Origin: Alphaproteobacteria bacterium
GTDB lineage: Bacteria > Pseudomonadota > Alphaproteobacteria > Rhodospirillales > Magnetovibrionaceae
NCBI GenBank assembly: GCA_015231605.1
Contig: JADGBG010000001.1
Span: 1 to 64,000, forward strand
Length of the DNA stretch: 64,000 bases
Reading direction: 5' to 3'
The notes beneath the pieces are model-generated. The model was given only the letters and a program-made list of their open reading frames with translations. It was not told the DNA's origin and did not search any database. Shown here piece by piece: positions 24,042 to 57,468 of this stretch (position 1 is the stretch's first letter; every line of letters starts with the position of its first letter). The translations under genes and the position numbers were made by a program.

Positions 24042-24044
24042 CGA

Positions 24045-25643
24045 ATGAACGTGATGAACCGTTACAGCAACCTGCCCCTGTTCTGGCAACTGTTGATCCC
24101 CATGGCCCTGGTGACCGTGTTGTGGGTTTTGAGCGCCACCATGGGGGTGCACGGGCTCATGGAAAACCGTTCCCTGATGCACGGGCTGTATAACGACAAT
24201 GTCAAAACCGTGTTTCATCTGGATCGGTTGCGCAACGGCATGTCGGATCATACGGCCAGCTTGTTGCGCCATTTGGCGACGGAACAGTCGGTACAAATGG
24301 AACGGTTTCGCCAGGACATGCGCGACGCCCGCACGTCCGTGGAACAGACCATGTGGGAGTTGAGGGGGGATTTCTCCAAAGACCACACGATCGAGTCCCA
24401 AATCTTCACGCATATCCAGGAGTCCTTGTCGACGTACCTCCAATTGACCGAGGATGCCGTGAAACTGAGCGCCGATTTCGAAAAGGAAGCCGCGTTCGCC
24501 ACCTTCAACGTCGCCATTCAACACCACCTGAACCGCATAGATGGTTCCATCCGGGAGCTCCATGCCCTGGAGGAAAAGGGCATGGAGGACGCCTATGGCC
24601 ATTCCGTCCGTCTGGAGCGCCTGAACGCCTTCATCACGCTGTTCACCAGCCTGGGCGCGGGCGCGTTGTCGGTTTTTATCCTGGGGTGGATCGCGCGGCG
24701 GACGTCGCGGCGCCTCAAGGAGGTCGCGGACTGCGCCGCCGCCATGGGGAACGGCGATCTTCAAGCCCGGCCAAACAGTTCCGACGAAGACGAAATCGGC
24801 GACTTGGGCCGGGGGTTGGCGCTGATGGCCGGCCAGCTGGAAGAAACCATGGCCGAGCTCCAGGGCACCGCGAACCAATTGCGCGTGGCGCGGGACAAGC
24901 TGGCGAACCTGGTCGTCGAGCGCACCACGGAATTGGAGAGCGAAAAAAAGTTCAGCGCGTTGCAAAAAGAGTTCGTGTCCCTGGTCAGTCACGAATTCCG
25001 CACGCCGCTGGCGATCATCGACGGTTCCGCCCAGCGCATCATGCGCAAAAGCGACGCCATGTCCCCCGATCAGTTGATCGAGCGCGGAAAAACCATCCGC
25101 ACGGCGGTGGAACGCATGGTCAATCTGATCGACACCACGCTGTTCGCGGCCCGGCTGGACGAGGGGCGCATAGATCTGCTTCTTACGGACTGCGACTTGA
25201 AGACCCTTTTTCAGCATATCATCGGGCACGTCGGGGAGCTTTCCCCCCTTCACCGCATCACCCTGACCGCCGACGACGGACCGATCGCCATCATGGCCGA
25301 TCCCAAATTGTTGGAGCATGTTCTGACCAACCTTTTGAGCAACGCCATCAAATACGCGCCGAACGATCCGAGGATCGAGGTCGGCCTGCATCGGGACGGG
25401 AAGGGGGCCGTTTTCACCGTCCGGGATTACGGCGTCGGCATTCCCGAAGGCGAGATGCACCGCATGTTCGAACGCTATTTCCGCGCCCGCACCGCCCTGG
25501 GCATCAAGGGCACGGGATTGGGGCTCAGCGTCTGCCGGGAATTCGTCGAAATGCACGGCGGCACGATCTCGGTGGAAAGCGAGGAAGGCAAGGGCGCCTG
25601 TTTCACGGTGCGTTTGCCGGGGGACGGCGTGGCCGGTGACTGA
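24045..25643 (+). CDS. membrane sensor histidine kinase with four-helix periplasmic domain
   Basis: The 532-residue kinase has TM1 (about 12-34), a periplasmic helical domain of about 160 residues (35-194) resembling four-helix-bundle sensors, TM2 (195-217), HAMP (about 218-270), a coiled-coil linker, HisKA with H316 in SHEFRTPLAIID, and an HATPase domain with LLSNAIKYAPND, DYGVGIPEG and GTGLGLSVC. All catalytic boxes are intact. It starts 3 nt after the ModA-like gene, so the binding protein is the probable ligand-loaded input to the periplasmic domain. Its kinase core closely resembles that of the next gene. Confidence 0.9.
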   Translation: MNVMNRYSNLPLFWQLLIPMALVTVLWVLSATMGVHGLMENRSLMHGLYNDNVKTVFHLDRLRNGMSDHTASLLRHLATEQSVQMERFRQDMRDARTSVEQTMWELRGDFSKDHTIESQIFTHIQESLSTYLQLTEDAVKLSADFEKEAAFATFNVAIQHHLNRIDGSIRELHALEEKGMEDAYGHSVRLERLNAFITLFTSLGAGALSVFILGWIARRTSRRLKEVADCAAAMGNGDLQARPNSSDEDEIGDLGRGLALMAGQLEETMAELQGTANQLRVARDKLANLVVERTTELESEKKFSALQKEFVSLVSHEFRTPLAIIDGSAQRIMRKSDAMSPDQLIERGKTIRTAVERMVNLIDTTLFAARLDEGRIDLLLTDCDLKTLFQHIIGHVGELSPLHRITLTADDGPIAIMADPKLLEHVLTNLLSNAIKYAPNDPRIEVGLHRDGKGAVFTVRDYGVGIPEGEMHRMFERYFRARTALGIKGTGLGLSVCREFVEMHGGTISVESEEGKGACFTVRLPGDGVAGD

Positions 25644-25656
25644 ACCAGGGGGGGGC

Positions 25657-27672
25657 ATGGGAAAAACCGAACACGGGAATGACGACCGCATCTGGGCGCA
25701 TGCCATCGTCGAAATGGCCCCTGACGCCATCATCGGCGTGGACGGCCGGCAGCTCATCGTTTCCGCAAATCCAGCGGCGGCGGAGATATTCGGGTACGCC
25801 CAGGGCGAGTTGGTGGGCCAGTCCGTCGACATCCTGATCCCCGACGACATCCGCGCCCAACACGCCGCCATGTTCGAGCGTTTCATGGCCAGCGACCTGC
25901 GCGTCCTTGCCGGCGGCAAGAGCATGCCGGTTCGCGCCCAACGCAAGTCCGGGGACGTGTTCCAGGCCGAAGCGACCTTGTCCAAGGTGCCGCTGCCGAA
26001 CGGCGAGACGGGCGTCACGATCATGCTGCGCGACGTGACCGAGCGGGTCCGCGCAAACGAGGCGCTGCGCCGCAGCGAGGAGCGTTTTCGCGACTTCGCC
26101 GATACCGCGTCCGACTGGCTGTGGGAAATGGATGAAAATTTAAGGTTCATCTATCTTTCCGATGGCGTGAAATTGACCGTCGGGGGAAGCGTCGCCGCGG
26201 GCGGCATCATCGGCAAAACGCGCCGGGAACTGGCGGGCGAGGACACCGATGACGAAAAATGGCGAAAACACATGGCGCTTCTCGATGAGCACAAGCCGTT
26301 TCGTGAATTCGACTATACGTACGTGACGCACACGGGCGAATCGGTTCACGTCAGCATCAGCGGAAAACCCGTGTTCGACGCCGATGGCAACTTCAAGGGC
26401 TATCGGGGCGCCGGCCGGGACGTCACCGATGTGGTGCGTTACCAGAAAAAAATCGCCGTCAGCGAGGAACGGCTGCGGATGATCCTGGAAAGCTCTCCCG
26501 TACCCCTGGTGATGTCCGGGGGCGCCGACGGGCGGGTCCTGTTCGCCAATTCCGCTTGGAGGGCCGCGATCGAAGTCGAGTCCGACGACCTGGAAGGCCT
26601 CAAGATCGGGACTCTTTTCGCCGATGCCGGCGATCAGGCCGCCCTTGACCGCATCCTGTCCGAATCTCGCCACGTGCAGGGGCATTTGGTGCGGTTTCGC
26701 CGGTTGCGTTCGGGCGATGTGTTTTTCGCGTCCCTGAACGTCACGCGCATGGATTTCAACGGCGAAGAGGTCCTGATCACCGGCATTCTCGACATCACGG
26801 AGCGGATTGTCGCCGAACAGGCGCTACGCAAAAGCGAAAGCGAGTTGCGCCGTCACCGCGACCGCCTGGAGGAATTGGTCCACGACCGCACGCTCGAGTT
26901 GGAAAACAAGAACAGCCAACTCGAAATCGCGCTGGAGAGCGAAAAGCGTTACAGCGCCCTGCAACAGGAATTCGTGTCCCTGGTCAGCCACGAATTCCGC
27001 ACGCCCTTGACCATCATCGACAGTTCCGCCCAGCGCTTGCTGCGCCAAAAGGCCGAACTGGACGCCGAGACCTTGAAAGACCGCGTCGGCAAGATCCGCT
27101 CGGCGGTCAGCCGCATGACCATCCTGATCGAAAAAACACTGTACGCATCCCGTCTCGACGCCGGGAACGTGACCATGGAACCGGAATGGTTCGACCTGAC
27201 GTCCATGGCGCGGCGGGTCGTGGATCGCCAGCAGGAGGTCTGCGAACAGCACCACATCCGGATGGCCGTCGCGCCCGGCGCCGGCGAAATTTTCGGGGAT
27301 CCGGGACTGTTGGAGCAAGTGCTGGTGAACTTGCTCTCCAATGCCGTCAAATATTCCCCACAGGCGGACCATGTCGATGTTTCTTTGGGCATATGCAGCG
27401 CGACAGACGCCTCGAATCCCTTGAAAACGGATGCGTACGTCATGCGCGTCCGCGATTTCGGGTGCGGCATACCGGATGACGAGCGGCCTCAAATGTTTCA
27501 ACGCTTTTTCCGGGCATCCACGTCCAAGGGCATCCCCGGCACGGGGATCGGATTGAATGTCGTGCGCACGCTGGTGTCGTTGCACCAGGGCGAAATCGGA
27601 TTTTCCAGCAAGCCGGAGGAAGGGACAGAGTTCGTTGTTCATATCCCACGGGATTTTTCCGTTTTCCATTGA
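25657..27672 (+). CDS. soluble triple-PAS sensor histidine kinase
   Basis: The 671-residue protein has no membrane segment. Three PAS domains are visible (about 15-131, 141-261, 271-385), the first typical (APDAIIGVDG, NPAAAEIFGY), the second with DWLWEMDENLRFIYLS, the third with FANSAWRAAIEVE. A coiled coil leads to HisKA (H445 in SHEFRTPLTIID) and HATPase (LLSNAVKYSPQ, DFGCGIPDD, GTGIGLNVV). The linker-HisKA stretch is almost the same as in the preceding kinase (SEK-SALQ-EFVSLVSHEFRTPL), indicating duplication. The ATG chosen follows AGGGGGGG; an upstream GTG overlaps the previous stop. Confidence 0.9.
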   Translation: MGKTEHGNDDRIWAHAIVEMAPDAIIGVDGRQLIVSANPAAAEIFGYAQGELVGQSVDILIPDDIRAQHAAMFERFMASDLRVLAGGKSMPVRAQRKSGDVFQAEATLSKVPLPNGETGVTIMLRDVTERVRANEALRRSEERFRDFADTASDWLWEMDENLRFIYLSDGVKLTVGGSVAAGGIIGKTRRELAGEDTDDEKWRKHMALLDEHKPFREFDYTYVTHTGESVHVSISGKPVFDADGNFKGYRGAGRDVTDVVRYQKKIAVSEERLRMILESSPVPLVMSGGADGRVLFANSAWRAAIEVESDDLEGLKIGTLFADAGDQAALDRILSESRHVQGHLVRFRRLRSGDVFFASLNVTRMDFNGEEVLITGILDITERIVAEQALRKSESELRRHRDRLEELVHDRTLELENKNSQLEIALESEKRYSALQQEFVSLVSHEFRTPLTIIDSSAQRLLRQKAELDAETLKDRVGKIRSAVSRMTILIEKTLYASRLDAGNVTMEPEWFDLTSMARRVVDRQQEVCEQHHIRMAVAPGAGEIFGDPGLLEQVLVNLLSNAVKYSPQADHVDVSLGICSATDASNPLKTDAYVMRVRDFGCGIPDDERPQMFQRFFRASTSKGIPGTGIGLNVVRTLVSLHQGEIGFSSKPEEGTEFVVHIPRDFSVFH

Positions 27673-27744
27673 ACCCGTCGTGATAGGATGATGATGGGCT
27701 CGGCGCGATTTGACTCATGACGACATGAGCGAGGAGGGGGGGAC

Positions 27745-28611
27745 GTGACCACGATCGTCTACATCGAAGATGAACATGACATCCGCGAGGACGTGACCGA
27801 CGAATTGCAGGAAGCCGGGTACCGCGTGGTCGAGGCCGCGAACGCCCAGGAGGGGCTGGCCGCGATCCGCGCCGAAAAACCGGATCTCGTGCTGTGCGAT
27901 ATCTCCATGCCCGGCATGTCGGGATTGGAACTGTTGTCGCGTCTGCGCGACAAGGAGAGCCGTTTCGACGACCTCCCGTTCATCTTTCTGTCCGCACTGG
28001 CGGACCGCAACGACATTCTCGCCGGCAAACGGCTCGGCGCCGACGACTATCTGACGAAACCCGTCGACATGGAGCTGTTGTTGGCCACGATCGAGGCCCG
28101 GCTGGGTCAGATCCGGCGTATCGAGAACAAGAAAAACCGTCAGTTCGTGAAGCTCTACACGGCACTGACCGGGCGGAAATTGCCCGTGGACGCATCAAAC
28201 ATCGCCGACTTCGTCGAAGAGGCGAAGGCGGACCGTCCGGTTTTGCAGGTTTTCATCGTCGCCGATGGAAAAATGGACCTGAGTTCCGTTCGATCCATCC
28301 TTGAAAGCGGCGGTCACGCGGTACACATCTTGAAAGGTGGACGGGATTTTATGTCTCGTTTGGATCGCGGAGCAGCGGTGGACGTGGTGCTGGTTTCCTA
28401 TTTCACCGAGGATTTCGCCGCGCCGCTGCTGTTGAAGTTGATCCAGGACACCTATCATTTGGAATGCCCGGTCATGTTGCTGTTGCCCGACGATTTGAAG
28501 AAAACGGTGCGCGAAGAACAAAAATCCTTGTTCGACGCGGTCGTCCTGATGCCGTGTTCCGCGGACGATTTCGCGGAGGCGTTGCTGCAATTGTTGCCGC
28601 AATCCGACTGA
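27745..28611 (+). CDS. response regulator with receiver plus degenerate second receiver
   Basis: The 288-residue protein has a complete N-terminal receiver (acid pair in YIEDEHD, D52 in LVLCDISMPGMSG, S83 and K105). Residues about 165-288 look like a second receiver (VLQVFIVADGKMDLSSVRSIL, VDVVLVSYFTEDF) in which the phosphoacceptor Asp is Ser and the Lys-Pro is Met-Pro, so it cannot be phosphorylated in the usual way. There is no DNA-binding or enzymatic output. GTG start after a GGAGGGGGGG ribosome site. Confidence 0.85.
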   Translation: MTTIVYIEDEHDIREDVTDELQEAGYRVVEAANAQEGLAAIRAEKPDLVLCDISMPGMSGLELLSRLRDKESRFDDLPFIFLSALADRNDILAGKRLGADDYLTKPVDMELLLATIEARLGQIRRIENKKNRQFVKLYTALTGRKLPVDASNIADFVEEAKADRPVLQVFIVADGKMDLSSVRSILESGGHAVHILKGGRDFMSRLDRGAAVDVVLVSYFTEDFAAPLLLKLIQDTYHLECPVMLLLPDDLKKTVREEQKSLFDAVVLMPCSADDFAEALLQLLPQSD

Positions 28612-28644
28612 CCGTCGGTCCGGTCCGAAGTGGGGATTTGAGGT

Positions 28645-29754
28645 TTGGTTAAGGTCCTGTGCATAGAAGATGAAGAGGCCTTGCGCCACGACATCGTCGA
28701 GGAACTCGTCGATGCCGGTTACGAGACCGCGGAGGCCCGCGATGGCGCCGAAGGGTTGCGGGCGATCCTCGCCCACAAGCCCGATCTGGTGCTGTGCGAC
28801 ATCACCATGCCGGGCATGACGGGGTTGGAGTTGCTGGAGCGGCTGCGCAACGACCATCCCGAATGCGACGCCATCCCGTTTTTGTTTCTGTCCGCCCTGG
28901 CGGGACGAAAGGACATCGTCGCCGGGCGTGAACTGGGCGCGGACGACTATCTGACCAAGCCGGTCGATTACGAAATCCTTCTCGCCACGCTGCGCTCCCG
29001 CCTTGGCCAGGTCCAACGACTGGATCGACTGCACAAGGAAGACATCGCGAAGCTGCGGGAATCCATCCTGCGCATGCTGCCCCATGAACTGCGCACGCCG
29101 CTCAACCATATTCTCGGCTATTCAGAGATGATCGACTCCGAAATGTTCGGGCCGTTGGGCCACCCGAACTACAAGGAATACGCCCATCTGATCCACGCCA
29201 GCGGCTCCCGCCTTTTGGGCATCGTCGAAGACGTGCTGACGCTGTTGGACGTTTCGACGGGCGAGCTTGTCCTTCACCCGGGCGACTGCGATTTGGCGGA
29301 CATGGTGCAGGCCTGCATCGCCGGCGTGCGCGATTTTGCCGAACAGTCGGAAACCAAACTGTACTGGAAAGCCGAAAACAACGATTGCACCCTGTATACG
29401 GACTGCGCCCTGCTGAAGCGCGCGGTGGACGTGGTGGTGCTGAACGCCGTGAAGTTTTCCGGCCCCAACGCCAAGATCGAGGTGCTCATCCGCGATCTGG
29501 ATGGGGGGGCGAAGTGGGAAATCCGCATTCGGGACAACGGCCCCGGCATTGCCGAAGACGAATTGGAGCGCGTCATGGAGCCGTTCACCCAGGGGGGCGG
29601 CAGGGACGACAGGATGACCCGGACGCACGAGGGGACGGGGCTCGGCCTGCCGTTGTCCAAGGCCTTGACGGAAACCTTGCGGGGCGACTTCCAATTGATC
29701 AGCGCCAAGGGCAAGGGAACGACCGTGATCATGACCATGCCACATTTGAAATGA
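28645..29754 (+). CDS. receiver-histidine kinase fusion (REC-HisKA-HATPase)
   Basis: The 369-residue soluble protein starts with a complete receiver (D52 in LVLCDITMPGMTG, K105 in DDYLTKPVD) followed directly by HisKA (H147 in LPHELRTPLNHILGYSE) and HATPase (LNAVKFSG, DNGPGIAED, GTGLGLPLSK). Such proteins take phosphate at the receiver to control their own kinase. The receiver is close to those of the genes on either side. No ATG exists at the required position; TTG (VKVLCIEDE) is the only sensible start, which suggests low expression. Confidence 0.85.
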   Translation: MVKVLCIEDEEALRHDIVEELVDAGYETAEARDGAEGLRAILAHKPDLVLCDITMPGMTGLELLERLRNDHPECDAIPFLFLSALAGRKDIVAGRELGADDYLTKPVDYEILLATLRSRLGQVQRLDRLHKEDIAKLRESILRMLPHELRTPLNHILGYSEMIDSEMFGPLGHPNYKEYAHLIHASGSRLLGIVEDVLTLLDVSTGELVLHPGDCDLADMVQACIAGVRDFAEQSETKLYWKAENNDCTLYTDCALLKRAVDVVVLNAVKFSGPNAKIEVLIRDLDGGAKWEIRIRDNGPGIAEDELERVMEPFTQGGGRDDRMTRTHEGTGLGLPLSKALTETLRGDFQLISAKGKGTTVIMTMPHLK

Positions 29755-29764
29755 GTGATCTTAA

Positions 29765-31441
29765 ATGTCCCGGGTACTTTGCATCGACGACGAAGATCTG
29801 ATTCGAGAAGACCTCATCGAAGAGCTGACGGACGCCGGCCACGAAGTGCGCGGCGCGCGCGACGGCGTGGAAGGTCTTGAAGCCATCTACCAATTCAACC
29901 CGGACGTGGTTCTGTGCGACGTCAACATGCCGAACATGAACGGCCATGAACTGTTGCGCGAACTGCGCGCCAACCATCCGGAAAAATCCAACGTCCCGTT
30001 CATCTTTCTGACGGCCTTCGGAGGCAGCGGCAATGTCGTCGACGGCTTGCAGATGGGGGCGGACGACTATTTGACCAAGCCGGTCGAATACGACTTGCTG
30101 CTGGCCAAGATTGAATCCGCCCAGCGCGTGCGCGACTCCTATGAAACGAAAATCGCCTATGCCTCCCACTTCGACAGCGTGACGGGACTGCCCAACAGGG
30201 TGCTGGCGTTGGACCGCTTGTTGCAGCAGTTGGCGCACGGTTATGAACGCCAAGACCGTATCGCCGCGCTGACGGTGGGCGTCATCGATTTCAAGAAGAT
30301 CACGGACGCCATGGGGCGTGCGGCGGGCGACATGGTCCTGCGCGAGGCCGCCCAACGGATTTCCGCTTGTGTCGGCGATGAGGAAACCGTCGCCTTTCTC
30401 GGCGGTTCCGAGTTTCTCGTGATCGCGTCCGACCGGAACTATAACGCCGAAACGATCGTGCGCCGCGTCATCGACGCCTTCGATACGCCGGTTTTCGCGG
30501 AATCCCAGGAAATCAAGGTCGGCGTGTCGGTCGGCGCCGCCATCTTCCCCGACGACGCCCAGGATCCGTTCACCATGTTGCGCAACGCGGATGCCGCCAT
30601 GTCCTTGGCCGCGCAGGAAGGCGGGGGGAGTTACCGGTTTTTCCGCAGAGAGCTCAGCGATCAGGTCGAACAGCGCATGCTGCTGGAAGCCCTCCTCAAC
30701 AGCGCCCTGGAACGCGATGAATTCGCGCTCCTCTACCAGCCCATCATCGACGGGGCGTCGGGCCGGATCGTTGCCGCCGAGGCCTTGTTGCGCTGGAACA
30801 ATCCCGAGGTGGACAGGGCCGGACCCGACGTTTTCATCCCCATCGTCGAACGGAACGGCCAGATCCTGCCCATCGGCGAATGGGCGTTGCGGACCGCGTG
30901 CCGGCAGGCGAAGACCTGGAACGATGTTCATGGATTTCCCGTCAAGATGGCGGTGAACCTGTCCGCCCGTCAGTTCACTTCCGGTGATCTGGTCGGCGTC
31001 GTCCGCAAGATTCTGGAGGAAACGGGCTTGTCTCCGAGACTTTTGGAGTTGGAGGTCACGGAGCGCTTGCTGATGGACGACAGCCACGACCTCATGTCCA
31101 CCATGACCGCCTTGCGCGACATCGGCGTCTCGTTGTCCATCGATGACTTTGGGACCGGGTATTCGGCTCTGAGTTATCTGAAGAAATACCCGTTCGACAC
31201 TCTGAAGGTCGACCGCGCCTTCGTGTCCGGCGTCGAGGACGATGAGTCCGACGCCACGTTGGTGCGGGCGATCGTCGCCATGGCCCATGGTCTGCGCCTG
31301 GAAGTGGTGGCGGAAGGTATCGAAAGCGCGGGACAGCAGACGTTCTTGAAAACGTTGAACGTCGAGTATCTCCAAGGCTATCATTTCGCCAGACCCCTCT
31401 CGGCCGAGGATTTCACGGCCCTGCTGAGAGACGAACAGTGA
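29765..31441 (+). CDS. receiver-GGDEF(degenerate)-EAL cyclic-di-GMP phosphodiesterase
   Basis: The 558-residue protein has a receiver (D52 in VVLCDVNMPNMNG, K105), a GGDEF domain (about 130-295) whose active-site loop reads GGSEF (213-217) and whose metal and base-binding residues are also altered (VIDFKKITDAMGRAAGD), and an EAL domain (about 305-555). The EAL catalytic set is intact: E339 in EALLRW, N398 in AVNLSARQ, the acidic pair in SIDDFGTGYS, K481 in LKVDRAF, and E517 in VVAEGIE. It should therefore degrade cyclic-di-GMP under phosphorylation control and lack cyclase activity. Confidence 0.9.
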   Translation: MSRVLCIDDEDLIREDLIEELTDAGHEVRGARDGVEGLEAIYQFNPDVVLCDVNMPNMNGHELLRELRANHPEKSNVPFIFLTAFGGSGNVVDGLQMGADDYLTKPVEYDLLLAKIESAQRVRDSYETKIAYASHFDSVTGLPNRVLALDRLLQQLAHGYERQDRIAALTVGVIDFKKITDAMGRAAGDMVLREAAQRISACVGDEETVAFLGGSEFLVIASDRNYNAETIVRRVIDAFDTPVFAESQEIKVGVSVGAAIFPDDAQDPFTMLRNADAAMSLAAQEGGGSYRFFRRELSDQVEQRMLLEALLNSALERDEFALLYQPIIDGASGRIVAAEALLRWNNPEVDRAGPDVFIPIVERNGQILPIGEWALRTACRQAKTWNDVHGFPVKMAVNLSARQFTSGDLVGVVRKILEETGLSPRLLELEVTERLLMDDSHDLMSTMTALRDIGVSLSIDDFGTGYSALSYLKKYPFDTLKVDRAFVSGVEDDESDATLVRAIVAMAHGLRLEVVAEGIESAGQQTFLKTLNVEYLQGYHFARPLSAEDFTALLRDEQ

Positions 31442-47365: not shown

Positions 47366-47415
47366 TTGGTCCGGTTGGGATGGTTTCAGGGATTCGGATC
47401 CGGGATAGGGAAGTC

Positions 47416-48627
47416 ATGATGAAATCGATCAAGAAGAACCTAGTGGCGGGCGCCGCCACGGCGGTCATGGGTTTTGCGGGCGCGGCCCAAGCGGACGGCC
47501 TTAAAATCGGCGCGTTGATGCCGATGACGGGTGGTTTGCAGGCCTACGGCGTGACGTCGCTCAACGGCGTCAACCTTGCCGCCGATCAGATCAACGCGGC
47601 CGGTGGCGTGAACGGCGGCAAGCTGGAGGTCGTCGTCGGCGACACTCAGACCTCCGCTCAACCCGGCGTGGCCGCGGCGAAAAAACTGGTGTCGGTCGAA
47701 GGCGTCAGCGCGCTGGTCGGCGCATTGTCGTCCGGCGTGACGATTCCCATCGCACAAACCGTTGCCGCCCCCAACGGCGTGCCGCAGATTTCCGGCGCAT
47801 CGACCGCTCCGGCCATCACTTCGATGGACGATCAGGACTTCCTGTTCCGCACCGTGCCCACGGACGCCGTTCAGGGCGTGGGCATGGCGGAACTGGCCGC
47901 CGAAGCGGGCATCAAGAACGCCGCCGTCATTTATGTCAATAACGACTACGGCAAGGGTTTGGCGGAAGCCTTCGCGGCGGCGTTCACAAGGAAGGGCGGC
48001 GCCGTGGCCCAGTCGGTCGCGTTCGAGGAAAAACAGGCGTCTTTTCGTGGAGAACTGCAAAAGGCCGCGTCCGGCGGCGCGACGCACCTGGTGCTGATCG
48101 CGTATCCGGAAAGCGGGATTCCCATTCTCAAGCAGTCCCTGGAGGGCGGGTACTTCATGAAGTTCGTCTTTTCCGACGGCATGAAGGCCAACGATATCGT
48201 CGACGCCATCGGGGCCGAATACCTCGACGGCGCGTTCGGCACGACGGCGGAATCCGCCGGCGACGCGGCGAAAATCTATCAGGCCGCCTTCGAGGCCAAA
48301 TACGGTCCGACCGAAAAGCCCTACAGCGACACCGCCTACGACGCCACGATGATCCTGGCGCTGGCGGCGGCGAAGGCGGGCTCCAGCGATCCCAAGGCCA
48401 TCCGGGACGCATTGCGCGACGTCGCCAACGCGCCGGGCGAAGCGGTTCTGCCGGGTGAATTCGCCAAGGGCGTCCAGTTGCTGAAGGCGGGCAAGGACAT
48501 CGATTACGTCGGCGCGTCGGGGCCGGTGGATTTCGACGCCAACGGCGACGTGTCCGGAACCTTCGCCCACTGGGTGATCGAAAACGGCCGGTTCGTCACC
48601 AAGAAAGTGTTCGTTCCCGGTTCTTAA
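47416..48627 (+). CDS. branched-chain amino acid-type ABC transporter binding protein (LivK-like)
   Basis: The 403-residue precursor has a Sec signal (cleavage near AQA-DG, residue 26) and the type I periplasmic-binding fold: LKIGALMPMTGGLQAYG, GVNLAADQINAAGGVNGGKLEV, and VGALSSGVTIPIAQTVA. It should bind an amino acid or related compound in the periplasm. The matching permease and ATPase genes are likely livGFHM, on the opposite strand about 6 kb away, so binding protein and transporter are transcribed separately. An ATG one codon downstream is equally usable. Confidence 0.9.
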   Translation: MMKSIKKNLVAGAATAVMGFAGAAQADGLKIGALMPMTGGLQAYGVTSLNGVNLAADQINAAGGVNGGKLEVVVGDTQTSAQPGVAAAKKLVSVEGVSALVGALSSGVTIPIAQTVAAPNGVPQISGASTAPAITSMDDQDFLFRTVPTDAVQGVGMAELAAEAGIKNAAVIYVNNDYGKGLAEAFAAAFTRKGGAVAQSVAFEEKQASFRGELQKAASGGATHLVLIAYPESGIPILKQSLEGGYFMKFVFSDGMKANDIVDAIGAEYLDGAFGTTAESAGDAAKIYQAAFEAKYGPTEKPYSDTAYDATMILALAAAKAGSSDPKAIRDALRDVANAPGEAVLPGEFAKGVQLLKAGKDIDYVGASGPVDFDANGDVSGTFAHWVIENGRFVTKKVFVPGS

Positions 48628-48776: not shown

Positions 48777-49580
48777 ATGCTGAAAAAATCCGCCAAATCC
48801 TTGCTCGGTCTCGTGGCCGGCGCCGTTTTGTTGTCCGCGTGCGGCGACCAAAAAGAAACGCCAGCCGTATTGCCCGAAATGCTCATCTATTGCGGCATCA
48901 CCATGGCCCATCCGATGAAGGAAATCGCCCAGAACATGGAACAGGAGCTGGGCGTCAAGATTCTCATCAACCAAGGGGGGTCGGAAGACCTGTATCAAAG
49001 CCTGAAGGCCTCGCAGAAGGGGGATTTGTACCTGCCCGGATCGGCGTCGTACCGCGAACGCCACATGGAAGAAGGGCTCCTTGGGGATTTCGTCCACGTC
49101 GGCTACAACCAGGCCGCCATGATCGTTCCGCGCGGCAATCCGAAGGGGTTGACGGCGGACATCACCCTGTTGACCAAGCCCGAATACAAGGTCGTCATCG
49201 TCAACCCCGACAGCGGCAGCATCGGACGGGAAACCAAGAAAATCCTGGACGATGCCGGGATTTATCAGGCGGTTCTGGACAATGCGACGTATCTGACCAC
49301 GGATTCCCGCAACCTCAACCAGGCCCTGAAGCAGGGCGACGCCGACGTGTCCATCAACTGGCGCGCCACCGCGTTTTTCGCCGAAAACAAGCCGCATATC
49401 CAGCAACTGGACCTGGACCCGGCCGTGGCGAAGCCCAAGAAGCTGGTGCTCAATCTGCTGACGTTCTCGAAAATCCAGGACAAGGCGCGCCGCTTCATGG
49501 AATACGCCTCATCGCCCGAAGGCCAGGCCATTTTCCGCAAATACGGTTTTCTTGACAACACGATGAAGGGTGACGACTGA
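48777..49580 (+). CDS. ModA-like substrate-binding lipoprotein
   Basis: The 267-residue precursor has a lipoprotein signal with lipobox LLSAC (C22) and no Asp after the Cys, so it may go to the outer membrane or stay at the inner one. The mature protein follows the ModA-type pattern (MLIYCGITMAHPMKEIAQNM, GSEDLYQSLKASQKGDLYLPG, and NPDSGSIGRETKKILDDAGIYQAVLDN). A cysteine (IYCG) sits at the first ligand loop. There is no ABC permease or ATPase; a hybrid histidine kinase follows 5 nt later. The ATG with GGAG six bases upstream was chosen over an in-frame ATG four codons before it. Confidence 0.87.
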   Translation: MLKKSAKSLLGLVAGAVLLSACGDQKETPAVLPEMLIYCGITMAHPMKEIAQNMEQELGVKILINQGGSEDLYQSLKASQKGDLYLPGSASYRERHMEEGLLGDFVHVGYNQAAMIVPRGNPKGLTADITLLTKPEYKVVIVNPDSGSIGRETKKILDDAGIYQAVLDNATYLTTDSRNLNQALKQGDADVSINWRATAFFAENKPHIQQLDLDPAVAKPKKLVLNLLTFSKIQDKARRFMEYASSPEGQAIFRKYGFLDNTMKGDD

Positions 49581-49585
49581 CTCCG

Positions 49586-52342
49586 ATGGATACCCCCGCC
49601 CAACCATCTGGAGGCGAGCCGCAGGTGAACGGCGCCGTCGGCGGAGCGTTGTTGTCCCGGCGCATCTATGCGCTGCTCGGCGTGTTCCTCACGGGGTTTT
49701 TGCTTCTCGTGGGGCTTGAGCTTGGCTTCAACCAATTGTCCGCGACGTTGAACACGCGCCTGGACAACGAGCGGTCGCGCGTTCAGATCGGCGAACTGAT
49801 TTCCCAGGACCTTTCCAAACTGGAAGCCAAAACCTACCAATTGGCGATGACCAGCGGCGTCAAAGGGCAGGAACGCGTGTTCCAGGACTTCGACGCCACG
49901 ATCCAGTTGCTCAAGGAAAGTCTTCACGTTTTGGAAAAGGGCGGAACCATCGTCCGCAAGACCCGTCTGAACATCGAAAGCCAGGAGATCATGGAACGAT
50001 CCATCACGTTCCATCCCGCGCTCGAGCGGCTTTACGTTCTGGAAGCCATCGATCTCCGCCCCAAGTTGATGCAGATCCGCGATCTGGCGGTCAAAATGAC
50101 GGCCATGCTGAGCGAGCGGGAAGCGCTGAATACGGCGTCTCAGCACCAGGCCTTCGTGGACATGGGCGATCAGGCCGACAACCATCTCAAGGGGTATCCG
50201 CCGCTGTTCACCCGCATGCGGGAAAACGCCAACCGGCTGTTTTTCGAAAGTCAGCGCCAACTGCGCGACATCAAGGCCGAGATCGAACAACAGGATACCT
50301 TTTATCAATCCCTCCAGGTGGCGCTGTCCGTCGCGGTCGTGCTGGCCGTCTTGGTGTTCGGCTACCGCCTTTTGTCCCAGGTCGCCACGGCGAACCGGGA
50401 TCTGCACGCCCTGGCCCGGGATCTGGAATTCCAGAAGTTCGCCCTGGACCAGCACGCCATCGTCAGCAGTACGGACGTCGATGGGAAGATTCTCTACGCC
50501 AACGACAAGTTCTGCGAAATCAGCGGCTATTCCCGCGAGGAAATGCTGGGGCATACCCACAGCATCGTGAAGTCCGGCGATCATCCGTCGACGTTCTACC
50601 GCGACATGTGGGACACCATCTCCTCCGGCAAGGTCTGGCATGGCGAGGTCAAGAACAAGAGCAGACACGGCAACCATTACTGGGTCTCCGCCACCATCGT
50701 CCCGTTTCTGGACGAGACCGGCAAGCCGTTCCGGTACATCTCCATCCGCACCGACATCACCGAACGCAAACGGATGGAAGAAGACATGCAGGACGCCAAC
50801 CGGTTCCTGCAAAGTCTCACCGACGCCATGGGCGAAGGCGTCTACGTCCAGGGCGCTATGGGCGAATGCCGTTTCCTCAACCCCGAGGCCGAGCGCTTGT
50901 TGGGGTGGTCCCTGGTCGAGCTTCAGGGGCGCAGCCTCCACGACACGGTTCATTACCATCTGGAGAACGGTCAACGCGTTAGCGCCGACCATTGCCGGGT
51001 TTTGAATACCGTCAAAAAGGGTGAAACCTACCGTTCCGATGAAGAGGAGTTCATCCGCAAGAACGGCGATGTGTTCCCGGTGTCGCTGGTGTCCGTGCCC
51101 ATGCTGGACGACGGCGTCATCATCGGTTCCGTCACCGTGTTCGCCGACATCACCACCCGCAAGGAGGCCGAGCGCGACATGGCCGCCGCCAAGGAAGAGG
51201 CGGAAAAGGCGAACCGGGCCAAATCCGAATTCCTGTCGTCCATGAGCCACGAACTGCGCACGCCGCTCAACGCCATCTTGGGATTCGCGCAACTGCTGGA
51301 TTTCAATCCGAGCGAACCCTTGACGCCGGACCAGAAGATGTCGGTCGAGCAAATCACCAAGGGCGGCAAGCACCTGCTGGAATTGGTCAACGACGTTCTG
51401 GACCTGGCGAAGATCGAATCGGGGAAAATCGACCTGACCGTGTCCGACGTGAACTCCGATCACCTGATCGAGGAATGCGAACCCCTGGCCGCCACCTTGG
51501 CGCAAAAACGCGGGCTTCAGTTCTCGACCCGAAAAGGCAGGGGCCATGTGATCCGCGCGGATCACATGCGCCTGAAGCAGGTGCTGTTGAACCTTCTGTC
51601 CAACGCCGTGAAATACAACAGGGACGGCGGCAGCGTCGTTCTGGCGTCCGAGCCCGTTGACAACGCCATGCTGCGGTTCTCCGTTTCCGACACGGGACCG
51701 GGTATTTCCCATGACCAGCAAGCCCAGTTGTTCCAGCCGTTCTCCCGGCTGGGCAAGGAAGACAGCGAAATCGAAGGGACCGGCATCGGCCTCATCATCA
51801 CCAAGCGTCTGATCGAAGCCATGGATGGGCGCATCGGCTTCGACAGCACGCCGGGCGAGGGGACCACGTTCTGGGTCGAGGTGCCGATTTCCGGCGCCGC
51901 GCAGCAAACGATGGCGCAGTTCGAACGGCGGGATGACAACACCGCACCCAAGGTCAAGCCGGGCGTGGATGTTGTCGGGCGGGTGGTCTATATCGAAGAC
52001 AACCCCGCCAACATATCGCTCATGGAAACGCTGCTCGGGCATATTCCCGGCATCGAATTGAAGGTCGCGCATACCGCGGAGCTGGGGATTGTCCTGATTC
52101 ACGACGTCATGCCCGATCTGGTGCTGATGGACATCAACCTGCCCGGCATGAACGGCATCGAGGCCCTGGGCGTGTTGCGCGCCGACCCAGCGACGGCCGG
52201 CATTCCCGTGATCGCCATCAGCGCGGCGGCCATGCATGCCGATGTTGCAAAGGGCAAGGCCGCCGGATTCGAGGCCTATCTCACCAAGCCGTTCAATATC
52301 CCCGAGATGCTGGCGACGATCGAAGGCATGCTGAAGGTCTAA
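49586..52342 (+). CDS. membrane hybrid histidine kinase (periplasmic sensor, 2 PAS, HisKA, HATPase, receiver)
   Basis: The 918-residue protein has TM1 (about 27-47), a mostly helical periplasmic domain of about 195 residues, TM2 (about 243-263), two PAS domains (about 283-395 and 405-525), HisKA with H555 in SHELRTPLNAILGF, HATPase (LLNLLSNAVKYNRD, DTGPGISHD, GTGIGLIIT) and a C-terminal receiver with D849 in LVLMDINLPG and YLTKPF. All key residues are intact. No histidine phosphotransferase is visible in the window. It follows the ModA-like lipoprotein by 5 nt, implying the lipoprotein feeds the periplasmic domain. The stop codon is the first triplet of an inverted repeat element. Confidence 0.92.
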   Translation: MDTPAQPSGGEPQVNGAVGGALLSRRIYALLGVFLTGFLLLVGLELGFNQLSATLNTRLDNERSRVQIGELISQDLSKLEAKTYQLAMTSGVKGQERVFQDFDATIQLLKESLHVLEKGGTIVRKTRLNIESQEIMERSITFHPALERLYVLEAIDLRPKLMQIRDLAVKMTAMLSEREALNTASQHQAFVDMGDQADNHLKGYPPLFTRMRENANRLFFESQRQLRDIKAEIEQQDTFYQSLQVALSVAVVLAVLVFGYRLLSQVATANRDLHALARDLEFQKFALDQHAIVSSTDVDGKILYANDKFCEISGYSREEMLGHTHSIVKSGDHPSTFYRDMWDTISSGKVWHGEVKNKSRHGNHYWVSATIVPFLDETGKPFRYISIRTDITERKRMEEDMQDANRFLQSLTDAMGEGVYVQGAMGECRFLNPEAERLLGWSLVELQGRSLHDTVHYHLENGQRVSADHCRVLNTVKKGETYRSDEEEFIRKNGDVFPVSLVSVPMLDDGVIIGSVTVFADITTRKEAERDMAAAKEEAEKANRAKSEFLSSMSHELRTPLNAILGFAQLLDFNPSEPLTPDQKMSVEQITKGGKHLLELVNDVLDLAKIESGKIDLTVSDVNSDHLIEECEPLAATLAQKRGLQFSTRKGRGHVIRADHMRLKQVLLNLLSNAVKYNRDGGSVVLASEPVDNAMLRFSVSDTGPGISHDQQAQLFQPFSRLGKEDSEIEGTGIGLIITKRLIEAMDGRIGFDSTPGEGTTFWVEVPISGAAQQTMAQFERRDDNTAPKVKPGVDVVGRVVYIEDNPANISLMETLLGHIPGIELKVAHTAELGIVLIHDVMPDLVLMDINLPGMNGIEALGVLRADPATAGIPVIAISAAAMHADVAKGKAAGFEAYLTKPFNIPEMLATIEGMLKV

Positions 52343-52468: not shown

Positions 52469-52653
52469 ACGCCGTCGTGCGCCCTTTCCTTGGCATTGGA
52501 ACACACACAAACAACTGTAATTATATGTTATATGTGGGTTAAAAATCTCACATTTGGTGTGATAATGCTGTTTTGATGCCCGTCAATCATGCTATGATAA
52601 TTTCGTTGGGCGCGGGTTGGGGAACCCGCGTCACCATTTCAGGGGGGGAGGCG
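52469..52653. other. AT-rich leader region upstream of sensor kinase
   Basis: This is the remainder of the gap between two kinase genes. Bases about 52500-52570 are unusually AT-rich for the window, with a TTATATGTTATATG stretch. I see no tRNA or other RNA gene in it. Confidence 0.4.
52573..52601 (+). promoter_or_regulatory. candidate promoter for the downstream sensor kinase
   Basis: TTGATG (-35) and GATAAT (-10) are 17 bases apart, with the -10 ending 52 nt before the chosen start. A promoter here argues against the longer open frame that begins within it. Confidence 0.45.
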
Positions 52654-54174
52654 ATGTTTCGCCTGCTGCGATATTTCTCGGTCGCCAGTTTCATATTGTT
52701 CGTCGTGTCCGCCACGCTGGTGTGGATTTACGTTTATCATCACGCCCAAGAGGACATCGTCGCGTCGTCGGAACGTCAAAACGTTTCGTTGGCGCGATTG
52801 CTGCAAAACAGCATCTGGCCTTCCTACGCCACGGCCTTGTTGTCGCTCGGCGAGCGCGATCCCGAACGCCTGAAGGCCGCGCCGTTTCTCGGCCAGCTCG
52901 ACGAGGATATCCGCGCCCTGTCCCATGGACTGCCGGTTCACAAGGTGAAGATCTACGCCCTGGACGGCGCTACCTTGTATTCCTCGATCCCCAAGGAAAT
53001 CGGTTTGAACAAAAGCACGAATGCCGGGTTTTTGGGGGCGAAGTCAGGGCAGGTCGTCAGCCAACTGACGTTTCGCGACGCCTTCAACGCCTTCGAGGGT
53101 GAAATTTTCAACCGGGACCTCGTGACCAGTTACATTCCGGTCCGAAGCGACGGGGATGGGGTCGTCGCCGTGTTCGAATTGTACACGGACGTCACCGAGG
53201 TCAAGGAACGGATCCAATCCACCGCAATTTGGACGGCCATAGGCCTGCCGTTGGTATTCATCGCGCTCTGGGTCATATTGTTGCTGATCGTGCGGCGCGC
53301 CGACTGCATCATACGCGATCAGTATGGGATGCTCACGGAAACGGCTGACGAGCTGATAGCCGCTCGTGACGAGATGGAAGAGCGTGTCGTGACACGCACC
53401 CGCGAACTCATGATCGAGAAGGAAAGGGCCGAATCCAGCAGCCGCGCCAAAAGCGCGTTCCTCGCCAACATGAGCCATGAACTGCGCACGCCCCTCAATG
53501 CCGTGATCGGGTTTTCCAGCATCATGAACATGCAGCTCTACGGTCCGCTCGGCGACCCGCGCTATCAGAGCTATGCCGACCATATTCAGAGTTCCAGCAA
53601 TCATCTTTTGGATCTGATCAACGATGTCTTGGATTTGACCAAGATCGAGGAAGGTCTGCTGCCGTTGCACGAGGAGCATTTCGACATGGCCGCCGTGGTC
53701 GAGGAATCCATGCTGGTGATCCGACCCCACGCCGAACGGGAAGGCGTGCGGGTCGAAACCAACTTGTGCGAGGCCATATCCGACGTCTACGCCGACCGGC
53801 GTCGGATCAAGCAGGTCATGATCAATCTGCTCAACAACGCCGTCAAATTCACCCCGGAGGGGGGTGCGGTTTCCCTAACGGCCCAGGTCCGGGACAATCA
53901 GGACCTGGCGATCGTGGTGCGCGACACCGGCATCGGCATGTCGGACGACGACATCGTGGTCGCCCTTGCCCCGTTCCAGCAGGTGGACCAGGGCCTCAAC
54001 CGGAAATACGAAGGAACCGGCCTCGGGCTTCCCTTGACCAAGAAGCTGGTGGAGCTGCACCAGGGCGCCATGGTGATCGAAAGCGCCACCGGGCGGGGTA
54101 CGGCGGTGCATGTGACGCTTCCCGGGCAACGGGTGTGCCGGGCCGCCGAGGCGGCGCGCCAGTCCGGGATCTAG
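52654..54174 (+). CDS. membrane sensor histidine kinase with Cache-like periplasmic domain
   Basis: The 506-residue kinase has TM1 (about 9-29), a periplasmic domain (30-190) whose second half (VHKVKIYALDGATLYSSIPKEIG, VTSYIPVRSDGDGVVAVFELYTDV) looks like a single PDC/Cache fold, TM2 (about 192-213), a coiled coil, HisKA with H275 in SHELRTPLNAVIGF, and HATPase (LLNNAVKFTPEG, DTGIGMSDD, GTGLGLPLTKK). No receiver is attached. The start follows AGGGGGGGAGG; an upstream open extension overlaps a promoter-like sequence. Its TAG stop shares the palindrome CTAG with the stop of livM on the other strand. Confidence 0.9.
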   Translation: MFRLLRYFSVASFILFVVSATLVWIYVYHHAQEDIVASSERQNVSLARLLQNSIWPSYATALLSLGERDPERLKAAPFLGQLDEDIRALSHGLPVHKVKIYALDGATLYSSIPKEIGLNKSTNAGFLGAKSGQVVSQLTFRDAFNAFEGEIFNRDLVTSYIPVRSDGDGVVAVFELYTDVTEVKERIQSTAIWTAIGLPLVFIALWVILLLIVRRADCIIRDQYGMLTETADELIAARDEMEERVVTRTRELMIEKERAESSSRAKSAFLANMSHELRTPLNAVIGFSSIMNMQLYGPLGDPRYQSYADHIQSSSNHLLDLINDVLDLTKIEEGLLPLHEEHFDMAAVVEESMLVIRPHAEREGVRVETNLCEAISDVYADRRRIKQVMINLLNNAVKFTPEGGAVSLTAQVRDNQDLAIVVRDTGIGMSDDDIVVALAPFQQVDQGLNRKYEGTGLGLPLTKKLVELHQGAMVIESATGRGTAVHVTLPGQRVCRAAEAARQSGI

Positions 54175-55112
54175 CCCCGTTTCTTGCCGTCCTGGCGTTC
54201 TGGCAACAGTCCCTCGGGCCGCCAGAGCAGGATCCCCTGAACCAGCACGCCGATCAGGAAGATGCGCAGCGCCCCGGCCTGGGTGGTGAACTCCGCCGGC
54301 AGTTTTCCGGTAAGGAATTCCGTGCCCGCCCACACCGCCCAGATCGCCATGGCCCCCAGCACCGCGCCCCGGTTGTTGGCGCTGCCGCCCGCGATCAGCA
54401 TCACCCACACCAGGAAGGTGATGAATTCGGGGTCGAACGCCTCGGGGCTGATGAAGCCGGTGAAATGCGCGTACAGCGCGCCCGACAATCCCATCGCCAT
54501 GGAGCCCAGCACGAACGCCTGGATGCGGAATGCGAACACGTTCTTGCCGGATGCCTGGGTTCCCGGTTCGCTTTCGCGGATGGCGCGCAGCACGCGCCCC
54601 CACGGCGACCGGCGGCCGCGCTCCAGCAGTCCATAGACCACCGCCAGCGCCGCCAGGACCACCAGAAGATCGGCGAGGGCCGGGTCCAGGGGCGTCGTGC
54701 TCAGCGCCTTGGGAATTTCCGCGACGCCGCGCACGCCGTTGGTGAGCCAGTCTTCGTTCTTGAGAAACAGGCGAACGATTTCCGCGATGCCGATGGTGGC
54801 GATGGCCAGGTAGTCGGTGCGCAGATTGAGCGTGACCAAACCGACCAACAGCGCCAGCACGCCGGAAACCAGGACGGCCCCCAGCAAGCCCACGGCGATC
54901 GGCATGTCGAAACCGCCCAGGTGGTCGGCGCTCGGCGGAGTGGTGAGAATGGCGGAGGCGTAGGCCCCGGCGGCGAAAAACCCGGCGATGCCGATGTTGA
55001 ACTGCCCGGTGAAGCCCCATTGCAGGTTCAGCCCCAGCGTCATCACCGCGTAGATCCCGGCGAGGGTGAGCATGAACACACCGTAGTTGATCAGCCCCGC
55101 CCATTCCATCAC
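54171..55112 (-). CDS. livM: branched-chain amino acid ABC transporter permease LivM
   Basis: The 313-residue membrane protein has about eight to ten hydrophobic segments and the LivM patterns LGLNLQWGFTGQFNIGIAGFFAAGAY, LRTDYLAIATIGIAEIVRL and GSANNRGAVLGA. It overlaps livH by 4 nt and is the last gene of livGFHM. Convergent with the sensor kinase gene, their stop codons overlap. Confidence 0.94.
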   Translation of the reverse strand: MMEWAGLINYGVFMLTLAGIYAVMTLGLNLQWGFTGQFNIGIAGFFAAGAYASAILTTPPSADHLGGFDMPIAVGLLGAVLVSGVLALLVGLVTLNLRTDYLAIATIGIAEIVRLFLKNEDWLTNGVRGVAEIPKALSTTPLDPALADLLVVLAALAVVYGLLERGRRSPWGRVLRAIRESEPGTQASGKNVFAFRIQAFVLGSMAMGLSGALYAHFTGFISPEAFDPEFITFLVWVMLIAGGSANNRGAVLGAMAIWAVWAGTEFLTGKLPAEFTTQAGALRIFLIGVLVQGILLWRPEGLLPERQDGKKRG

Positions 55113-55969
55113 GCACGCCCTCCCAACAGGCCCTGGGGCCGCGCCACCAGCATCGCCACCATGATGGCGAAGGCCACGGCGGGCTTGTAGGCGGGTTCGA
55201 TCATCAGGGTGGACATCTCCACCGCGACCCCGATCACCAGACCGCCCAGGATCGCGCCGTACACCTTGCCGATGCCGCCCAGAATGGTGGCGGCGAACAC
55301 CATCAACAACACGTGCCAGCCGGTCATCGGGTTGAGGTGCGTGTCCAGCGCCAGGAACACCCCGGCGGTGGCCGCGAGGCTGGCCCCGATGCCCCAGGTC
55401 CAGGCGATCACGCGTTCATTGTCGATGCCGGTGATGGCCGCCAGGTCGGGATTGTCCGCCATGGCGCGCATGGCCTTGCCCAGCTTGGTGCGGTGCAAAA
55501 ACAGATGCAGCGCCACCACCAGAACCGCCGCGCCCACCACGATGGTGATGTGGTCGGGCTTGATGGCGACGCCCAGGACGCGATAGGGGATCTGGATGCC
55601 TTTTTGCAGGGCGTGGTTGCCGGGACCCCAGATCATCTGGATCAGCGCGCGCAGCGCCATGGCGATGCCGAACGACGAGATCAGCAAGATCACCGGTTGC
55701 GTGCGGCGCAGCCTGCGGTACACCAGCCGGTCGATGGCGATGGCCAGCGCGACGGTCACCACGATGGCGAAGGGCAGGGCGCCGAACACCGGAAACCCCA
55801 GGCCCGTGACGAACGACAGCGCGATGTAGGCGCCGAACGTCATCATGTCGCCGTGGGCGAAATGGGCGAAACGCAGAATGCCGAACAGCATGGACACGCC
55901 GATCGCCCCCAGCGTCAGGATCGATCCCAACACCAGGCCGTAAACCAGCATTTGCAACACGTCAGCCAC
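55109..55969 (-). CDS. livH: branched-chain amino acid ABC transporter permease LivH
   Basis: The 286-residue membrane protein has about eight hydrophobic segments and the LivH patterns LVLGSILTLGAIGVSMLFGILRFAHFAHGD, MRAMADNPDLAAITGIDNERVIAWTWGIG and ATILGGIGKVYGAILGGL. It pairs with LivM. It begins 6 nt after the livF stop. Confidence 0.94.
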   Translation of the reverse strand: MADVLQMLVYGLVLGSILTLGAIGVSMLFGILRFAHFAHGDMMTFGAYIALSFVTGLGFPVFGALPFAIVVTVALAIAIDRLVYRRLRRTQPVILLISSFGIAMALRALIQMIWGPGNHALQKGIQIPYRVLGVAIKPDHITIVVGAAVLVVALHLFLHRTKLGKAMRAMADNPDLAAITGIDNERVIAWTWGIGASLAATAGVFLALDTHLNPMTGWHVLLMVFAATILGGIGKVYGAILGGLVIGVAVEMSTLMIEPAYKPAVAFAIMVAMLVARPQGLLGGRA

Positions 55970-55975
55970 CGGCTC

Positions 55976-56683
55976 TCATCCCCCCAGGAACATCCGCGCC
56001 ACGTCCGGATCGTCGAGAAGCTCGCGCCCCGTGCCGTCGTGGCGGTTGCGGCCCATCACCAGGACGTGCCCTTTGTCGGCGATTTCAAGGGCTTGGCGGG
56101 CGTTCTGTTCGACCATCAAGATGGTGACGCCCAACAGGTCGTTGACGGTCTTCACCAGTTCGAAGGTCTGGTCGATGTATTTGGGGCTGAGGCCCGCCGT
56201 CGGCTCGTCCAGCAACAGCATGCGCGGCTCCATCATCATGGCGCGGCCCATGGCCAGCATCTGGCGTTCGCCGCCGGACATGGTCCCGGCGGGTTGGGCG
56301 CGGCGTTCCTTGAGGCGTGGGAACAGTTCGAACACCCGCTCCATCTGTTCGCGAAAGTCGTCGTCCCGCAGGAACGCGCCCATTTCCAGGTTTTCCTCCA
56401 CCGTCATGGTGGGGAACACATTGTTTTCCTGCGGCACGTAGGCGAGGCCGTGGGCCACCACCTTCTGCGTGGCCAGATTGGTGATGTCCTCGCCGTTGAA
56501 GAAGATGCCGCCCTTGTGGATATGGGCGAGCCCGAACACCGCCTTCATCAATGTCGACTTGCCCGCGCCGTTGGGGCCGATGATGACGGCGATCTCGCCG
56601 TGGGCGACCTCCAACGAGCAGCCGTTGAGAATGTCCGCCTTGCCGTAGCCGCCGCGCACCTCTTCGATCTTCAGCAGGCTCAT
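55976..56683 (-). CDS. livF: branched-chain amino acid ABC transporter ATPase LivF
   Basis: The 235-residue ATPase has Walker [10 protein letters not shown], signature [16 protein letters not shown], Walker [14 protein letters not shown] and the switch histidine replaced within [10 protein letters not shown], the LivF-typical loop. It lacks the longer C-terminus of LivG. The start overlaps the livG stop by 4 nt (ATGA). Confidence 0.95.
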
Positions 56684-57468
56684 GTCGCGCGTCCTCCGCG
56701 GCCCGCCGCCGCCCGCCCGCCGCCCAGGTAGGCTTCCAGCACGTCTTCGTTGGCGCGGATGTCCGCCATGGAGCCATGCGCGATCACCGCGCCCTGGCTC
56801 ATGCACACCACCGGGTCGCACAATTCGGTGATCACGTCCATGTCGTGTTCGATGATGCAGACGGTGAAGCCGCGTTCCTCGTTGAGGCGGCGGATCATGG
56901 CCGTCAGCTTGACCATCAGGGTCGGGTTGACGCCCGCGCCGGGTTCGTCGAGCAGCACCATCTTGGCGTCCGTCATCAGGCAACGGCCCAGCTCCAACAG
57001 TTTCTTCTGTCCGCCCGAAAGGTTGCCCGCCAGCTCATCGGCGACATGGGGAATTTCCAGGAAATCCAGCACCTCGTCCGCCTTTTCGCGCACGCGCTTT
57101 TCCTCCGCCGCCACCTTCCAGGGCAGGAACCAGGTGGCGAACAGGTTCTCGCCGCTTTGTTCCGGCGGGGCGACCATGAGGTTTTCGCGCACCGTCATGC
57201 GTTGGAACGTCTGCGGCAATTGGAAGGTGCGCACCAGACCCAGATGGAACCGTTCATGTGGGGAAAGGGCGGTGATGTCCTGGCCGTCCAGCAGGATTCG
57301 TCCGGAATCGGGCTTGAGAAATCCCGCCGCGATGTTGAACAGGGTGGTCTTGCCCGCGCCGTTGGGACCGATCAGTCCGGTAATGGAGCCCCGGGCGATG
57401 TCGAACGAGCATTCGTCGACCGCCGTGACGCCGCCGAAAGACTTGGAGAGGGTGCGGATGGACAACAT
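56680..57468 (-). CDS. livG: branched-chain amino acid ABC transporter ATPase LivG
   Basis: The 262-residue ATPase has [13 protein letters not shown] at the start, Walker [10 protein letters not shown], signature [16 protein letters not shown], Walker [14 protein letters not shown] and the LivG-typical [10 protein letters not shown]. It is the first gene of the livGFHM operon; the usual order in many species places the permeases first. Confidence 0.95.

Follow-up and report, generated by a model that had tools for sequence, protein, structure and literature searches.

Two loci in a 64,000-nucleotide (nt) stretch of DNA from an alphaproteobacterium of the family Magnetovibrionaceae (assembly GCA_015231605.1, contig JADGBG010000001.1, positions 1 to 64,000; hereafter the window) each encode an exported substrate-binding protein (SBP) of the ModA fold, and in both the SBP gene adjoins that of a histidine kinase with a large extracytoplasmic domain. 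These two pairs, SBP1-HK1 (locus 1) and SBP2-HK2 (locus 2), are probably dedicated sensors of a small molecule. SBP1 and SBP2 are best read, from their sequences, as two ModA-related clades that have left transport. Sensing by SBP-dependent kinases is already known as a kind, and the novelty on this reading lies in the two undescribed ModA-fold clades. The features concerned are as follows.

23253-24041 (stop), + strand: SBP1, a ModA-fold periplasmic protein of the SBP_bac_11 family, 262 amino acids (aa).
24045-25643 (ATG at 24045), + strand: HK1, a sensor kinase of 532 aa.
48777-49580 (stop), + strand: SBP2, a ModA-fold periplasmic lipoprotein of the SBP_bac_11 family, 267 aa.
49586-52342 (ATG at 49586), + strand: HK2, a hybrid histidine kinase of 918 aa.
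49730-50317, + strand: the periplasmic sensor domain of HK2, about residues 49-244.

Both pairs are tightly spaced. The gap between the SBP stop codon and the kinase ATG is 3 nt at locus 1 (24041 to 24045) and 5 nt at locus 2 (49580 to 49586), in agreement with the preliminary description of the window. Reading through the SBP1 stop would join SBP1 to HK1 in frame, with the SBP tethered to the cytoplasmic end of the first transmembrane segment (TM1). Both binding proteins match Pfam SBP_bac_11 (E=1.4e-43 for SBP1 and 3.1e-59 for SBP2) and the modA family TIGR01256, for which the cut-off is 62.5 bits; SBP1 scores 117.4 bits and SBP2, at 68.7 bits, lies barely above it. It was also confirmed that one protein is soluble and the other a lipoprotein, as SBP1 has a Sec-type signal peptide (judged by eye) and SBP2 a lipobox, LSAC, at residues 19-22 (C22). 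An AlphaFold model of SBP2 (mean pLDDT 76) shows the fold of type-II binding proteins; its best hits in the Protein Data Bank (PDB) are binding proteins of the molybdate type, followed closely by PEB3 and AcfC. No modB or modC gene was found at either locus.

The two kinases differ in layout. HK1 has transmembrane segments at residues 17-35 and 195-213, a periplasmic 4HB_MCP_1 domain, HAMP, HisKA and HATPase_c; the periplasmic region matches 4HB_MCP_1 (PF12729) at 45.9 bits against a cut-off of 27, and the kinases at loci L029 and L031 match this family too. HK2 consists of TM1 (about 30-48), a periplasmic region (about 49-244), a second transmembrane segment (about 245-263), two PAS domains, HisKA, HATPase_c and a receiver (REC) domain. 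Its periplasmic region of about 195 residues matched no Pfam family at E <= 0.01, 4HB_MCP_1 included. A model of HK2 residues 1-285 (mean pLDDT 81) nevertheless predicts a four-helix bundle like those of TorS, LytS and Tar, with a beta-hairpin (pLDDT about 70-75) between helices 2 and 3. The structural matches of this sensor include McpS, the N-terminal domain of LytS (LytS-N, from the XylFII-LytS complex), TorS (from the TorS-TorT complex), Tar and the kinase of QseE-QseG, with Z of 10.7-14.4; for TorS, Z is 12.5-13.6 over 128-139 residues, a range common for helical bundles. The fold class alone is claimed, because such values are usual for bundles. The conserved GG and the hairpin, which the helix order leads one to expect near the membrane, might speculatively be regarded as a candidate docking element.

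Both pairs are kept in distantly related lineages. At 13 of 13 loci the gene after SBP2 encodes a kinase whose periplasmic domain is homologous to that of HK2; these loci are the window, seven from a scan of genome contigs with SBP2, three from family f40 and two from a search with the sensor profile. The contig scan recovered seven relatives with 44-58% identity from Hydrogenophilales, Tepidiphilus, Thiobacillus, other Betaproteobacteria and Desulfomonile, and in all seven a hybrid kinase with an HK2-like N-terminal membrane and periplasmic part starts within about 20 nt. Three members of family f40 gave three further SBP2-kinase pairs. When the HK2 sensor profile was used alone on 200 genomes of the Thiobacillus order, two new loci appeared, both with SBP2 directly upstream; across 11 genomes this profile found exactly one match per genome, always the kinase beside SBP2. 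The pair is patchy, being present in 4/398, 3/200 and 1/42 genomes of the samples, and is intact where present. SBP2 is absent from all of the other 17 genomes in the window's family and rare elsewhere, so SBP2 and HK2 appear to be acquired and lost together. A plasmid search with SBP2 returned weak relatives only (11 records below 25% identity).

The SBP1 pair is likewise kept, with SBP1 followed by an HK1-type kinase at 5 of 5 loci, the window counted. Its four relatives (42-49% identity) are divided evenly between the window's family and f40, two genomes each, and alignment shows that in every case the kinase encoded next has an N-terminal domain homologous to that of HK1. HK1 residues 1-285 found three matches in 398 genomes, all adjoining SBP1. 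In the 398-genome sample, members of the clade reach 414-436 bits with a profile built from the five SBP1 proteins, and the next ModA relatives reach 127 bits at most. Ordinary ModA relatives served as a control: modB and modC were adjacent in all 27 loci inspected and no kinase match was found in any of them, while modBC genes were absent from the loci of the SBP1 and SBP2 relatives. Two expectations of the preliminary description, that the pairing would be kept in related genomes and that orthologues elsewhere would lack modBC beside them, were thus borne out. The window's genome also holds modABC twice as a complete operon (contig C11, locus L036, and contig C159, locus L037), so neither SBP1 nor SBP2 is needed as its ModA.

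The pockets of the two proteins point in the same direction. Positions were mapped on E. coli ModA (PDB 1amf) and are given in E. coli numbering, with S12, S39, A125, V152 and Y170 as the residues that we take to contact the oxyanion. Ordinary ModA proteins carry S, S/T, A/V, V and Y/F at these five positions almost throughout. SBP1 has S, S, F, I and F/Y and SBP2 has T, S, I/V, S and W, so that both retain the two N-lobe hydroxyl residues (positions 12 and 39) and have replaced the C-lobe contacts. The pocket residues are nearly or fully invariant within each clade (5 SBP1 and 13 SBP2 sequences). In SBP1 the motifs ANSTC, CKxSGRLAKG, TAPFGRY and TRxHITLL are invariant, as are cysteines 46 and 68, which correspond to ModA positions 14 and 36 and are the sole cysteines of the window protein, and a lysine and a histidine at ModA positions 37 and 151. 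SBP2 has invariant YCGITM, GGS, GDLYLPG, GSxGxE, S177 and N194-W195, and in ModA equivalents S124, E128, N169 and W170.

Because these positions are invariant within each clade, the pockets seem to be under selection for a specific ligand, which may be small and probably anionic and need not be molybdate. Molybdate should not be taken as the default ligand, since both clades have swapped the molybdate-contacting residues for invariant sets of their own; this candidate was lowered by the pocket comparison together with the two modABC operons of the genome.

It is likely, judging from gene order and domain content, that each pair forms an SBP-dependent, three-component sensor. In such a system SBP1, free in the periplasm, or SBP2, anchored to the membrane, would capture a small, probably anionic periplasmic ligand, and the loaded protein would dock on the periplasmic four-helix bundle of the kinase from the next gene downstream and change that kinase's autophosphorylation. 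The kinase core would relay the signal onward, at locus 2 from PAS to HK2's own receiver domain and at locus 1 from HAMP to the neighbouring receiver proteins, among them the one with a GGDEF-EAL end. Physical docking, ligand-dependent activation, the anionic nature of the ligand and the phospho-target are what we infer here.

Several observations weigh against this proposal. Adjacency of an SBP and a kinase is alone no proof, because PA0602 (AgtB) did not bind with its neighbour AgtS and PA4985 showed no interaction with AruS (PMC11113362). Z values of about 14 are common among helical bundles, the SBP2 model is of low confidence at residues 79-103, and locus 2 has no dedicated response regulator, its sole receiver being the REC domain of HK2. 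Over ten pairs, in which mean identity is 59% for the SBP, 43% for the sensor and 51% for the kinase core, SBP distances correlate at 0.94 with the sensor and at 0.93 with the kinase core. Co-inheritance is therefore shown by these correlations, not interface coevolution, and a specific coevolution of SBP and sensor was rejected.

The neighbours that failed to interact (PMC11113362) would also suit an explanation that we regard as unlikely: the kinase perceives its signal without help, and the adjoining SBP shares its expression but does not dock, serving for instance as a scavenger or being itself a target of the regulation. Direct binding of small ligands is frequent in sensors that are four-helix bundles or all-helical, such as NarX, NarQ, KinB and Adeh_2942 (PMC8534201) and also Vc1313 and MCP2201. 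However, in the genomes tested the sensor never occurred without the SBP nor the SBP without the kinase, and the pair stays together while the flanking genes differ. A second explanation, more improbable in our judgement, is that the SBP, its pocket decayed, acts on the kinase without any ligand, either as a structural co-component or as an inhibitor. A report on DbfQ-DbfRS describes a small periplasmic protein, encoded beside a kinase, that can act on that kinase directly (PMC12714742), and the pocket residues do differ from those of ModA; yet their conservation within each clade, as expected under ligand selection, does not suggest decay. That both proteins are ordinary ModAs delivering molybdate to modBC elsewhere beside an incidental kinase is very improbable, even though both exceed the TIGR01256 cut-off and the genome has two modBC sets, for each set already has its own modA, the SBP1 clade lies hundreds of bits apart from transporter ModA, the equivalents of A125, V152 and Y170 are changed, and an SBP-kinase linkage that spans classes is not incidental.

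Sensing through a binding protein that has left transport is thus the preferred explanation for both pairs. A bolder extension of it, put forward tentatively and in our view rather doubtful, is that the two clades left transport independently to become dedicated co-receptors of four-helix-bundle kinases for non-molybdate anions, SBP1 for a thiol-reactive or redox-linked ligand and SBP2 for a different anion, and that the hairpin sensor of HK2 represents a new SBP-docking family. The redox-linked ligand is suggested for SBP1 because of the invariant cysteine pair beside the pocket and the invariant lysine and histidine.

Whether the pairing had one origin or two bears on this extension. SBP1 (99/98) and SBP2 (100/100) form separate supported clades in the tree, and the HK1 and HK2 sensor profiles do not align with each other, so far as the sequences go making independent recruitment of the two pairings plausible. 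A tree uniting SBP1 and SBP2 was 0.63 log-likelihood units worse and was not rejected (approximately unbiased (AU) test, p=0.374), and since both sensors are in addition four-helix bundles, two origins are unproven. The earlier suggestion that the pairing arose or was kept twice accordingly holds in that both pairs are conserved, while its double origin is plausible but unproven, given the AU result and the common bundle fold. Two arguments offered for it need qualifying. The distinction between a HAMP kinase and a PAS hybrid is weak because architecture varies inside each clade, with PAS, REC and Hpt present in some members and missing from others: in SBP2-type kinases the periplasmic domain and kinase core are constant, with zero to two PAS domains and, in a single kinase, Hpt, and in HK1-type kinases 4HB_MCP_1 and HAMP are constant and the downstream modules differ. 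Nor does solubility separate the pairings as a clade feature, the SBP2 clade containing soluble proteins as well as lipoproteins.

SBP-dependent kinases known to date include those of TorT/TorS, AioX/AioS, LuxP/LuxQ, BctC/BctE, XylFII/LytS and CuaD/CuaS (PMC5908839, PMC9602780, PMC10384115, PMC8534201), and about ten SBP-activated kinases had been characterised by 2022 (PMC9602780). In keeping with the preliminary description, no ModA-fold SBP-kinase pair was found in the open-access papers searched, although an earlier mention is possible. TorT/TorS, which responds to trimethylamine N-oxide, resembles locus 2 in combining a periplasmic binding protein with a hybrid kinase whose periplasmic domain is all-helical. 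The TorS and HK2 sensors share no sequence family that could be found, and TorT is not known to be a ModA-fold (SBP_bac_11) protein. AioX/AioS, ArxX and ArrX, for arsenic oxyanions, similarly use an oxyanion-type SBP for sensing rather than transport, with its gene adjoining that of the kinase (PMC5908839). They differ in SBP subfamily, as SBP1 and SBP2 match SBP_bac_11 best and no phosphonate-type Pfam family at E <= 0.001. No arsenic genes were noticed in the parts of the loci that were read.

In XylFII-LytS and CuaD-CuaS, a dedicated SBP that is unshared with a transporter docks on the extracytoplasmic domain of the kinase (PMC10384115); LytS-N is among the best fold matches of the HK2 sensor (Z 14.2) and CuaD, like SBP2, is a lipoprotein. 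Their SBPs are, however, of the sugar type, come from Clostridium-type bacteria and regulate sugar transporters, whereas no transporter target is linked to the present pairs. The ModA of ModABC shares with SBP1 and SBP2 the fold, the SBP_bac_11 and TIGR01256 matches and the two N-lobe pocket hydroxyl residues, but it is accompanied by modBC where the window proteins have a kinase, belongs to different clades and keeps the C-lobe contacts that they have replaced. PEB3 and AcfC, among the PDB matches of SBP2, are ModA-fold proteins of changed specificity and to our knowledge are not encoded with kinases.

Two conserved SBP-kinase families are thus added, in a binding-protein fold for which no described kinase partner was found and, for HK2, with a sensor domain that has no Pfam entry. 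Because SBP1- and SBP2-type proteins pass the automatic modA cut-off, databases will name them molybdate transport proteins, against their context and pocket. The pairs are small, occur in Thiobacillus- and Hydrogenophilales-type bacteria and offer a direct test of how an SBP is converted from transport to signalling.

The genes around the pairs are listed below, those of locus 1 first.

25636-27672, + strand: cytoplasmic triple-PAS histidine kinase, its start overlapping the HK1 stop.
27745-28611, + strand: response regulator, a receiver plus an unassigned C-terminal part.
28645-29754, + strand: receiver-histidine kinase protein.
29765-31441, + strand: receiver-GGDEF-EAL protein.
47380-48627, + strand: LivJ-type binding protein (Pfam and NCBIfam), upstream of SBP2.
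52648-54174 (open reading frame from 52573), + strand: HK3, a second sensor kinase with two transmembrane segments, 3' of HK2.
54171-57468, - strand: branched-chain ATP-binding cassette (ABC) transporter genes, named from sequence, convergent and downstream of HK3.

The triple-PAS kinase is a probable partner of HK1 output and the receiver-GGDEF-EAL protein a possible cyclic di-GMP (c-di-GMP) output of the locus 1 cluster. The signalling chain downstream of HK1 (25636-31441) may form a phosphorelay that feeds c-di-GMP signalling; in the other four genomes it does not accompany SBP1-HK1.

At locus 2, SBP2, HK2 and HK3 stand between the LivJ-type gene and the branched-chain ABC genes as if sensory genes had been inserted there. 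The earlier statement that no ABC transporter lies at the loci consequently holds for modBC at both and fails for the vicinity of locus 2. In other genomes neither HK3 nor the LivJ and branched-chain ABC genes adjoin SBP2-HK2, and the flanking Liv-type genes come with a binding protein of their own. A functional link between locus 2 and this transporter was rejected, the Liv genes being absent beside the pair elsewhere.

Among the SBP2 loci of other genomes, the partner kinase at L015:1369-3402, in a metagenome-assembled genome labelled Tepidiphilus, is split by an in-frame TAA between its sensor and kinase parts and is either a pseudogene or an assembly error. At the f40 loci, HK2 overlaps by 4 nt a giant hybrid kinase of about 1390-1480 aa, absent at the remaining SBP2 loci:

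L033:8598-12770: giant hybrid kinase of f40.
L034:1331-5506: giant hybrid kinase of f40.
L035:7999-12447: giant hybrid kinase of f40.

The modABC operon on contig C11 sits among genes resembling nifE, nifN and nifU/nifS, which suggests that the window's organism is a nitrogen fixer. In genome G017 of the window's family, a ModA-like domain lies within a 512-aa open frame (L021:1474-3012) that is followed by a modC-like gene and is possibly a ModA-ModB fusion.

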